NCBI GenBank assembly: GCA_032622095.1
Contig: CP136063.1
Span: forward strand, 36,864,106-36,928,105
DNA from: Siphonodentalium dalli
Taxonomy: Eukaryota; Mollusca; Scaphopoda; Gadilida; Siphonodentaliidae
DNA: 64,000 nucleotides
Direction: 5' to 3'
The notes under the pieces were generated by a model, which had not been told where the DNA came from, searched no databases, and saw nothing but the letters and a program-made list of their open reading frames with translations. Position numbers and translations under genes: made by a program. How positions within the stretch are numbered: the first letter of the stretch is position 1; each line of letters starts with the position of its first letter. Positions 25,818 through 44,300 of the stretch are shown here, piece after piece.

Positions 25818-26084
25818 TTATTTCCCACATATATCACAATGGTATGGTTCATCTCCGGTGTGGATTCTCTTATGTTTCGTCATGTGACTCTTATCATTAA
25901 ATGATTTCACGCACAAATCACATTGATACAGGAGATCTCCGGTGTGGATTCTCTTATGTTTCGTCATGTGACTCTTATCATTAAATGATTTTCCGCACAC
26001 ATCACATTGATACAGGAGATCTCCGGTGTGGATTCTCTTATGTTTCGTCATGTGACTCTTATCATTAAATGATTTCCCACACAA
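25818..26084 (-). pseudogene. C-terminal finger stretch of the array
   Basis: This open stretch of 88 codons contains three array-type fingers and ends in a diverged finger start (PYHCDICGK), followed by a stop. Further diverged fingers of the NQSSNLVKH type continue out of frame or past stops to 25690. The stretch shows how the array grades into older fingers. Confidence 0.7.
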
Positions 26085-26246
26085 ATCACATTGATACGGG
26101 AGATCTCCGGTGTGGATTCTATTATGTTTCGTCTTGTGACTCTTATCATTAAATGATTTCCCTCACAAATCACATTGATACGGGAGATCTCCGGTGTGGA
26201 TTCTCTTATGTCTCGCCAGGTGACTCTTATCATTAAATGATTTCCC

Positions 26247-26471
26247 TCACAAATCACATTGATACGGGAGATCTCCAGTGTGGATTCTCTTATGTCTCGT
26301 CAGGTGACTCTTATCATTAAATGATTTCCCGCACAAATCACATTGATACGGGAGATCTCCGGTGTGGATTCTCTTATGTTTCGTCATGTGACTCTTATCA
26401 TTAAATGATTTCCCACACAAACCACATTGATACGGGATATCTCCGGTGTGGATTCTCTTATGTTTCGTCAT
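26247..26471 (-). pseudogene. Array finger stretch between two TGA-mutated units
   Basis: About two and a half fingers lie between TGC-to-TGA stops at the second zinc-binding Cys of units near 26246 and 26499. The same substitution bounds the next stretch at 26580. Confidence 0.75.
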
Positions 26472-26582
26472 GTGACTCTTATCATTAAATGATTTCCCTC
26501 ACAAATCACATTGATACAGGAGATCTCCGGTGTGGATTCTCTTATGTTTCGTCATGTGACTCTTATCATTAAATGATTTCCC

Positions 26583-39843: not shown

Positions 39844-40426
39844 ATTGATGCAGGAGATCTCCGGTGTGGATTCTCTTATGTCTCGTCATGTGACTCTTAT
39901 CATTAAATGATTTCCCGCACAAATCACATTGACACGGGAGATCTCCGGTGTGGATTCTCTTATGTTTCGTCATGTGACTCTTATCATTAAATGATTTCCC
40001 GCACACATCGCATTGATACGGGAGATCTCCAGTGTGGATTCTCTTATGTTTCGTCATGTGACTCTTATCATTAAATGATTTCCCGCACAAATCATATTGA
40101 TACGGGAGATCTCCGGTGTGGATTCTCTTATGTTTCGTCATGTGACTCTTATCAGTAAATGATTTCCCGCACACATCACATTGATACAGGAGATCTCCGG
40201 TGTGGATTCTCTTATGTCTCGTCGTGTGACTCTTATCATTAAATGATTTCCCGCACACATCACATTGATACGGGAGATCTCCGGTGTGGATTCTCTTATG
40301 TTTCGTCATGTGACTCTTATCATTAAATGATTTCCCGCACAAATCACATTGATACGGGAGATCTCCGGTGTGGATTCTCTTATGTTTCGTCATGTGTCTC
40401 TTATCATTAAATGATTTCCCACACAA
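39794..40426 (-). pseudogene. Array block A, last copy
   Basis: Seven fingers with the block A variants, differing by KSHTTRH and LPCQCDL substitutions. LPCQCDL is shared with 35264-36487, which links those two blocks more closely. Confidence 0.8.
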
Positions 40427-41300
40427 ATCACATTGATACAGGAGATCTCAGGTGTGGATTCTCTTATGTCTCGTCATGTGACTCTTATCAGTAAATGATT
40501 TCCCTCACAAATCACATTGATACGGGAGATCTCCGGTGTGGATTCTCTTATGTTTCGTCATGTGACTCTTATCAGTAAATGATTTCCCGCACAAATCACA
40601 TTGATACAGGAGATCTCCGGTGTGGATTCTCTTATGTCTCGTCAGGTGACCCTTATCATTAAATGATTTCCCACACAAATCACATTGATACGGGAGATCT
40701 CCGGTGTGGATTCTCTTATGTTTCGTCATGTGACTCTTATCAGTAAATGATTTCCCTCACAAATCACATTAATACGGGAGATCTCCGGTGTGGATTCTCT
40801 TATGTTTCATCATGTGACTCTTATCATTAAATGATTTCCCGCACAAATCACATTGATACAGGAGATCTCCGGTGTGGATTCTCTTATGTTTCGTCATGTG
40901 ACTTATCATTAAATGATTTCCCTCACAAATCACATTGATACAGGAGATCTCCGGTGTGGATTCTCTTATGTTTCGTCATGTGACTCCTATCATTAAATGA
41001 TTTCCCGCACAAATCACATTGATACAGGAGATCTCCGGTGTGGATTCTCTTATGTCTCGTCAGGTGACCCTTATCATTAAATGATTTCCCACACAAATCT
41101 CATTGATACGGGAGATCTCCGGTGTGGATTCTCTAATGTTTCGTCATGTGACTCTTATCATTAAATGATTTCCCGCACAAATCACATTGATACGGGAGAT
41201 CTCCGGTGTGGATTCTCTTATGTTTCGTCATGTGGCTGTTATCATTAAATGATTTCCCGCACACATCATATTGATACGGGAGATATCCGGTGTGGATTCT

Positions 41301-44300
41301 CTAATGTTTCGTCATGTGACTCTTATCATTAAATGATTTCCCGCACAAATCACATTGATACGGGAGATCTCCGGTGTGGATCCTCTTATGTTTAGTCATG
41401 TGACTCTTATCATTAAATGATTTCCCACACAAATCACATTGATACGGGAGATCTCCGGTGTGGATTCTCTTATGTTTCGTCAGGTGACTCTTATCATTAA
41501 ATGATTTCCCGCACACACTACATTGATACGGGAGATCTCCGGTGTGGATTCTCTTATGTTTCGTCATGTGACTCTTATCATTAAATGATTTCCCACACAA
41601 ATCACATTGATACAGGAGATCTCCGGTGTGGATTCTCTTATGTTTCGTCATGTGACACTTATCAGTAAATGATTTCCCGCACAAATCACATTGATACAGG
41701 AGATCTCCGGTGTGGATTCTCTTATGTTTCGTCATGTGACTCTTATCATTAAATGATTTCCCGCACAAATCACATTGATACGGGAGATCTCCGGTGTGGA
41801 TTCTCTTTTGTTTCGTCATGTGACTCTTATCATTAAATGATTTCTCGCACAAATCACATTGATACGGGAGATCTCCGGTGTGGATTCTCTTATGTTTCGT
41901 CATGTGACTCCTATCATTAAATGATTTCCCGCACACATCACATTGATACAGGAGATCTCCGGTGTGGATTCTCTTATGTTTCGTCATGTGACTCCTATCA
42001 TTAAATGATTTCCCGCACACATCACATTGATACAGGAGATCTCCGGTGTGGATTCTCTTATGTTTCGTCATGTGTCTCTTAACATTAAATGATTTCCCGC
42101 ACACATCACATTGATACAGGAGATCTCCGGTGTGGATTCTCTTATGTTTCGTCATGTGACTCTTATCATGAAATGATTTCCCGCACAAATCACATTGATA
42201 CGGGAGATCTCCGGTGTGGATTCTCTTATGTTTCGTCATGTGACTCTTATCATTAAATGATTTCCCGCACACATCACATTGATACGGGAGATCTCCGGTG
42301 TGGATTCTCTTATGTTTCGTCATGTGACTCCTATCATTAAATGATTTCCCGCACAGATCACATTGATACGGGAGATCTCCGGTGTGGATTCTCTTATGTT
42401 TCGTCAGGTGACTCTTATCATTAAATGATTTCCCGCACAAATCACATTGATACAGGAGATCTCCGGTGTGGATTCTCTTATGTTTCGTCATGTGACTCTT
42501 ATCATTAAATGATTTCCCGCACAAATCACATTGATACGGGAGATCTCCGGTGTGGATCCTCTTATGTTTAGTCATGTGACTCTTATCATTAAATGATTTC
42601 CCACACAAATCACATTGATACGGGAGATCTCCGGTGTGGATTCTCTTATGTTTCGTCAGGTGACTCTTATCATTAAATGATTTCCCGCACACACTACATT
42701 GATACGGGAGATCTCCGGTGTGGATTCTCTTATGTTTCGTCATGTGACTCTTATCATTAAATGATTTCCCACACAAATCACATTGATACAGGAGATCTCC
42801 GGTGTGGATTCTCTTATGTTTCGTCATGTGACACTTATCAGTAAATGATTTCCCGCACAAATCACATTGATACAGGAGATCTCCGGTGTGGATTCTCTTA
42901 TGTTTCGTCATGTGACTCTTATCATTAAATGATTTCCCGCACAAATCACATTGATACGGGAGATCTCCGGTGTGGATTCTCTTTTGTTTCGTCATGTGAC
43001 TCTTATCATTAAATGATTTCTCGCACAAATCACATTGATACGGGAGATCTCCGGTGTGGATTCTCTTATGTTTCGTCATGTGACTCCTATCATTAAATGA
43101 TTTCCCGCACACATCACATTGATACAGGAGATCTCCGGTGTGGATTCTCTTATGTTTCGTCATGTGACTCCTATCATTAAATGATTTCCCGCACACATCA
43201 CATTGATACAGGAGATCTCCGGTGTGGATTCTCTTATGTTTCGTCATGTGTCTCTTAACATTAAATGATTTCCCGCACACATCACATTGATACAGGAGAT
43301 CTCCGGTGTGGATTCTCTTATGTTTCGTCATGTGACTCTTATCATGAAATGATTTCCCGCACAAATCACATTGATACGGGAGATCTCCGGTGTGGATTCT
43401 CTTATGTTTCGTCATGTGACTCTTATCATTAAATGATTTCCCGCACACATCACATTGATACGGGAGATCTCCGGTGTGGATTCTCTTATGTTTCGTCATG
43501 TGACTCCTATCATTAAATGATTTCCCGCACAGATCACATTGATACGGGAGATCTCCGGTGTGGATTCTCTTATGTTTCGTCAGGTGACTCTTATCATTAA
43601 ATGATTTCCCGCACAAATCACATTGATACAGGAGATCTCCGGTGTGGATTCTCTTATGTTTCGTCATGTGACTCTTATCATTAAATGATTTCCCGCACAC
43701 ATCACATTGATACAGGAGATCTCCGGTGTGGATTCTCTTATGTTTCGTCATGTGACTCTTATCATGAAATGATTTCCCGCACAAATCACATTGATACGGG
43801 AGATCTCCGGTGTGGATTCTCTTATGTTTCGTCATGTGACTCTTATCATTAAATGATTTCCCGCACACATCACATTGATACGGGAGATCTCCGGTGTGGA
43901 TTCTCTTATGTTTCGTCATGTGACTCCTATCATTAAATGATTTCCCGCACAAATCACATTGATACAGGAGATCTCCGGTGTGGATTCTCTTATGTTTCGT
44001 CAGGTGACTCTTATCATTAAATGATTTCCCGCACAAATCACATTGATACAGGAGATCTCCGGTGTGGATTCTCTTATGTTTCGTCATGTGACTCTTATCA
44101 TTAAATGATTTCCCGCACACATCACATTGATACAGGAGATCTCCGGTGTGGATTCTCTTATGTTTCCTCATGTGACTCTTATCATTAAATGATTTCCCGC
44201 ACACATCACATTGATACAGGAGATCTCCAGTGTGGATTCTCTTATGCAGCACCAAGTTTCTAAATTGAATAACATTTAATGATTTCCCGCATATATCACA

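Follow-up and report, generated by a model that had tools for sequence, protein, structure and literature searches.

Satellite DNA organized in higher-order repeats is exemplified by alpha satellite. Here we describe an array in which repeats of this kind are built from zinc-finger codons, in the scaphopod mollusc Siphonodentalium dalli. It lies in a 64,000-nucleotide stretch of contig CP136063.1 (C3:36864106–36928105, hereafter the window) of a 2.23-Gb genome of nine contigs. Several described systems come close to it, as far as the accessible portions of the papers cited here and below describe them. The finger exon of PRDM9 is a coding minisatellite of 84-bp C2H2 units that varies in copy number and evolves in concert (PMC3890296, PMC4874674). 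In ruminant PRDM7 and the canid PRDM9 remnant, finger repeats of 84 bases are interrupted by several in-frame stops, whose sites are common to relatives (PMC4874674, PMC3213085). Macrosatellites, namely ZAV beside ZFP37 and SST1, occur near zinc-finger (ZNF) genes, with monomers of 5.3 and 2.4–2.5 kb (PMC3018141). The array in the window is very probably a pseudogenised C2H2 array whose expansion has made it satellite-like, with higher-order repeats, while it has stayed locus-specific.

Each of these systems shares part of this description. Like PRDM9, the array consists of 84-bp C2H2 units of shifting copy number in a single block, but the fingers of PRDM9 are few (6 to 12 in ruminants), open and variable mostly at contact codons, whereas the array has 219 units, is broken and shows no contact excess. 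Ruminant PRDM7 and canid PRDM9 resemble it as pseudogenised finger repeats with stops; the PRDM7 finger regions, however, measure 627, 710 and 960 bp and canids retain four finger-like stretches, compared with 18.4 kb and higher-order repeats here. In common with satellites that have higher-order structure and with the macrosatellites, the array contains blocks of several units that resemble one another more closely than single units do, and it lies in a ZNF-cluster setting. Nothing in the accessible descriptions marks the ZAV and SST1 monomers as finger units, whereas the monomer of the array is a finger codon block whose core occurs at two loci only. The other C2H2 arrays of the genome have the 84-bp finger register and a related backbone in common with it, but have few fingers with diverse contacts, in contrast to its 219 uniform ones. 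We found no description of a zinc-finger satellite or of a giant finger array with higher-order structure in the literature, in which subscription papers were mostly out of reach; in its accessible portions, PMC8210747 apparently does not treat a satellite made of zinc fingers. The parts are thus known (pseudogenised finger arrays, unequal exchange and higher-order repeats), and their combination at such a scale seems unusual.

Uniform fingers in a broken frame

Tandem Repeats Finder reported an 84-bp unit in 220.2 copies at 25775–44246. Segmentation of the minus strand gave a core array of 219 head-to-tail finger units at 25839–44210 (−), spanning 18.4 kb, with unit lengths of 84 bp (n = 209), 82 bp (n = 8) and 80 bp (n = 2). 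At the helix contacts −1, 2, 3 and 6 (standard numbering), D, S, H and K were present in 205, 181, 208 and 179 of the 209 full-length units, respectively. The exact DSHK quadruple occurred in 154, and only 9 kinds of quadruple were seen. A first-pass annotation, made from the letters alone, had reported about 220 tandem 84-bp zinc-finger units with uniform D/S/H/K contacts at this place, and both statements hold. The units are not identical copies: 98 distinct sequences occur among the 209, with a mean identity of 95.19%.

Unbroken CX2CX12HX3H fingers were found in 159 of the 219 units. An in-frame stop is present in 28 units and a frame-shifting length of 82 or 80 bp in 10, giving 38 units with one or the other, and a zinc ligand is lost in 22 further units. 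The 201 array fingers recovered with a looser pattern were split among the three frames of the minus strand as 89, 56 and 56. The array is therefore not one 220-finger protein; this interruption of the frame, which the first-pass annotation did not report, is the decisive finding. Its longest open run covers 34 units, followed by runs of 17. This longest run, at the 5′ end, falls in a stop-free stretch of 1,021 codons (41304–44366), which holds the sole long open frame (41301–44363 (−); 1,020 amino acids from ATG, 34 array fingers). All four ligands are present in 32 of these 34 fingers, and Pfam returned zf-H2C2_2 and zf-C2H2 for the stretch. Read by eye, the start ATG lies within a decayed finger but in a different reading frame.

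To quantify variation between units, we counted each distinct derived allele once and took the neutral expectation from a matching base-change spectrum. The first-pass annotation had named neutral codon-position variation, together with a lack of transcripts, as grounds for refuting its proposals, and the variation does look neutral: codon positions 1, 2 and 3 carry 26, 24 and 27 distinct alleles, and the ratio of nonsynonymous to synonymous to stop alleles (N:S:stop) is 53:17:7 for the whole array, compared with 56.8:15.8:4.4 expected. Contact codons are neither specially conserved nor specially diverse. They are changed in 63 of 836 cells (7.5%), ordinary codons in 200 of 2,299 (8.7%), linker codons in 125 of 1,463 (8.5%) and ligand codons in 36 of 836 (4.3%), so that the excess change at helix contacts typical of PRDM9 is absent. 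Helix codons as a whole gave 20 N and 4 S (ratio 0.99). Among the changed cells of the array, 130 of 521 are CpG transitions; at codon 26, such a transition (CCG to CTG) replaces the linker proline with leucine in 98 of the 209 units.

We compared the backbone of the array with that of sister finger arrays from the same genome. The controls were 12 loci (L010–L021), picked non-randomly from the match list for their spread over contigs, together with the window genes at 1, 17 and 48 kb. Between strict fingers, all in-register units of 84 bp were kept, broken or not; L017 gave no units, leaving 14 sets. Out-of-register units are lost in this procedure, which still favours intact sisters. Clusters in the sister arrays contain 4 to 17 fingers, most of which differ in their contact quadruples: L011 has 14 kinds in 17 fingers and L014 has 13 in 14, against 9 in 209 in the array. 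The pooled sisters gave a backbone N/S ratio of 0.37 (209 N, 186 S and 5 stop of 400 alleles), compared with 0.73 in the array (28 N, 12 S and 7 stop of 47). With ligand codons left out, the values were 0.55 and 1.00. The pooled sisters are thus more constrained than the array, on average only.

Higher-order repeats and a second array

Block self-comparison revealed a 52-unit block at 35903–40264 (−), with stops and frameshifts inside it, and a second copy with the same broken units at 31373–35734 (−). The copies are 99.89% identical (5 mismatches), and their stops and 82-bp units stand at matching places. Broken units within such similar blocks indicate that amplification followed breakage. 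Copied broken units are what unequal exchange on DNA would leave and are not expected of protein selection. A 14-unit block at 42531–43706 (−) is likewise followed by a copy at 41355–42530 (−) with 99.91% identity (one mismatch), and together the two supply 28 of the 34 units in the open stretch. Further repeated stretches of 11 to 14 units showed 98.7 to 99.7% identity. The structure is therefore higher-order in the manner of a satellite, with blocks at 99.89% and 99.91% compared with a mean of 95.19% between units. The last 40 units at the 3′ end (25839–29190 (−)) are more varied: 35 of the 38 84-bp units are distinct, the mean pairwise difference is 4.49 in 84, and both 80-bp units lie here.

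A second array is located 2.3 Mb away on the same contig. The flank at 45041–56307 of the window recurs in an inverted segmental duplicate at C3:39210275–39222339, with 99.05% identity over 8,769 bp and 98.62% over 2,531 bp. Relative to window positions 56307–45041, the duplicate has ~0.78 kb extra mid-way. It leads straight into an array of 32 units (L007), without a counterpart of window positions 44301–45040. Outside both ends of the duplicate, C3:39207001–39235000 is not collinear with the window, and matches there are confined to repeats and to other finger genes. This speaks against a misplaced haplotype. In L007, stops begin at the 7th unit, and 15 of the 32 units are identical to some unit of the window, including stop-bearing units 9, 15 and 21 and the 82-bp unit 31. 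The broken units are thus older than the duplication, or were exchanged afterwards. The two arrays differ in length (32 compared with 219 units) beside flanks diverged by 0.9–1.4%, and either may be the one that changed.

Allowing up to one mismatch, a 39-bp unit core matched the genome 158 times in reverse and 26 times in forward orientation, which equals the 158 matches in the window plus the 26 in L007; at this threshold, none occurred elsewhere in the genome. With its core at two loci only, the array lacks the abundance of a satellite in the strict sense, which occupies many loci or large heterochromatic blocks. The other matches listed had 79–86% identity to a three-unit query (39 of 1,353 candidates scored).

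Origin of the array and alternative explanations

The observations that bear on the origin of the array are the units themselves, their broken frames, neutral-looking variation, duplicated broken units, confinement of the unit core to two loci and the recurrence of identical broken units at L007. The most probable course would start from a fragment of a C2H2 poly-zinc-finger gene that was pseudogenised. One finger unit would then have been amplified by unequal exchange, and probably by gene conversion too, with coding function lost before the latest expansions. The exchange process, the timing of this loss and the lack of any protein product are inferences. On this view, the contacts would be nearly invariant because the units descend from a recent common ancestor: recent copying, rather than selection to read one triplet, most likely explains their uniformity.

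The DNA-binding properties proposed in the first-pass annotation can be considered in this light. Under the recognition code, D/S/H/K contacts are expected to read approximately the triplet GGC. The consensus unit contains neither GGC nor GCC, and binding of the array to its own repeat, one of the proposals, is therefore not predicted. In the genome, (GGC)8 gave 1,276 + 1,405 overlapping matches, compared with 1,317 + 1,453 for the reversed control, and is uninformative about a target. An array that reads a single triplet or stores zinc gained no support. The data favour the last of the proposals, that of a coding satellite without any function as a protein.

Several results pull against an array wholly without coding function. 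Ligand codons are the least changed class, which could be a trace of an earlier coding life. At 0.73, the backbone ratio falls short of 1 (rough 95% interval 0.37 to 1.43, calculated by hand from the 28 N and 12 S alleles), and earlier or partial constraint on the array is possible; the open zone alone gave 0.54, from just 6 N and 3 S. The control sets also overlap the array. L018 has a backbone ratio of 0.86; without ligand codons, L019, L018, L014 and L016 reach 1.33, 1.05, 0.90 and 0.86, and, with the looser pattern, stop units occur in 6 of the 12 sister loci as well. Finally, the 5′ end is open over 34 units. In permutation tests with the two recent block copies collapsed (153 units), a leading open run of 20 units had P = 0.0105, a value made too small by the local spread of broken units.

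This 5′ end raises the question of whether the first 34 fingers (41301–44363) form a working, highly uniform C2H2 protein, with only the downstream part dead. The length of the run, the ligands retained in 32 of its fingers, the lack of any stop allele in this zone and the leading-run test all speak for such a protein. We nevertheless consider it unlikely. The two 14-unit copies reduce the run to ~20 independent units, and an open run as long as the longest, located anywhere, had P = 0.30, itself too small owing to the same local spread. Alleles in the zone, although few, stand at N:S:stop of 14:4:0 compared with 13.8:3.2:0.9 expected, and the second array has a stop as early as its 7th unit. 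Directly upstream of the open stretch, the fingers are decayed, which also speaks for pseudogenisation: units of 66, 71 and 90 bp with stops occupy 44211–44443 (−) and are akin to both sister genes (17 and 48 kb), and in the comparisons made, finger-gene similarity begins at ~44443. The 3′ edge is similarly bounded by decayed fingers akin to the same genes (25679–25838 (−)). By eye, we saw no leader in the finger frame across 44201–47400, more distant exons not being searched for; upstream exons were sought only by eye and by BLAST against fetched loci. Neither PR/SET nor KRAB appeared in the rows listed from a Pfam scan of twelve window open reading frames (ORFs), a scan that did not search for exons. 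It is very unlikely that the 34-finger stretch still encodes a protein of nearly identical fingers that binds zinc or repeats of a GGC-like triplet, with its tail meanwhile turning into satellite-like DNA; the locus would then be a transcription-factor gene in the course of becoming a satellite.

There is a slim chance that assembly produced the length of the array, or its higher-order duplication, as an artefact, as 52-unit blocks at 99.89% identity are prone to misjoining. Yet those blocks are 5 substitutions apart, the units are diverse (98 distinct among 209) and identical broken units recur at the second locus; even if the artefact were real, the frame would stay broken. We give the slimmest chance of all to an array kept for a role at the DNA or RNA level, for instance as a source of small RNAs directed against other C2H2 genes, or by forming a block of chromatin next to ZNF genes. 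The contig is rich in related C2H2 matches (79–86% identity to the unit among the matches listed), which is circumstantially consistent with such a role, but the second array has 32 units, so array length is not conserved. Expansion of a pseudogenised finger array into a locus-specific, satellite-like one thus remains by far the most probable account.

Genomic setting and implications

The array is accompanied by related finger genes. The two sister ZNF genes, at 17 and 48 kb, share 88% identity across 1.67 kb, and a 30-bp coding minisatellite, HETANTGNSR, precedes the fingers of both (17016–17138, 4.1 copies; 48063–48125, 2.1 copies). A stop codon after HMKIHT is common to these two (17880–17882 and 48780–48782) and to the minus-strand gene at L007, and in all three it is followed by one or two more finger units in the same frame. 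Upstream of the array, 46290–46680 (−) holds, as read by eye, the remnant of a different C2H2 gene (MEESFNEESGSTSQTTSG... followed by fingers), which contains stops and a frameshift; motif matches at 46378 and 46287 lie in the region of this remnant.

Other features of the window include non-long terminal repeat (non-LTR) retrotransposon-like ORFs at 5502–7787 (+), with Pfam matches to Exo_endo_phos (5502–6185) and reverse transcriptase (6624–7787). Repeat copies at 18416–19823, 49000–49533 and 55481–56009 occur in both orientations, with up to 97.7% identity within the window, and one of them is near an end of the segmental duplication. Two adjacent long ORFs of 586 and 358 codons at 21112–23997 (−) had no Pfam match at E values up to 1. 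The haemocyanin family PF14830, examined as a lineage marker, gave no match, but it was equally silent in control genomes and is therefore uninformative.

The locus apparently illustrates clearly how a protein-coding repeat can become a satellite-like array with higher-order structure. The contrast of 32 and 219 units beside a flank diverged by 0.9–1.4% means that the rate at which the arrays expand or contract is open to measurement. Gene predictors could call the open parts of the array giant zinc-finger genes. More broadly, the array carries a warning for the reading of C2H2 sequences: identical fingers in an array are no evidence of a protein that reads a repeat.

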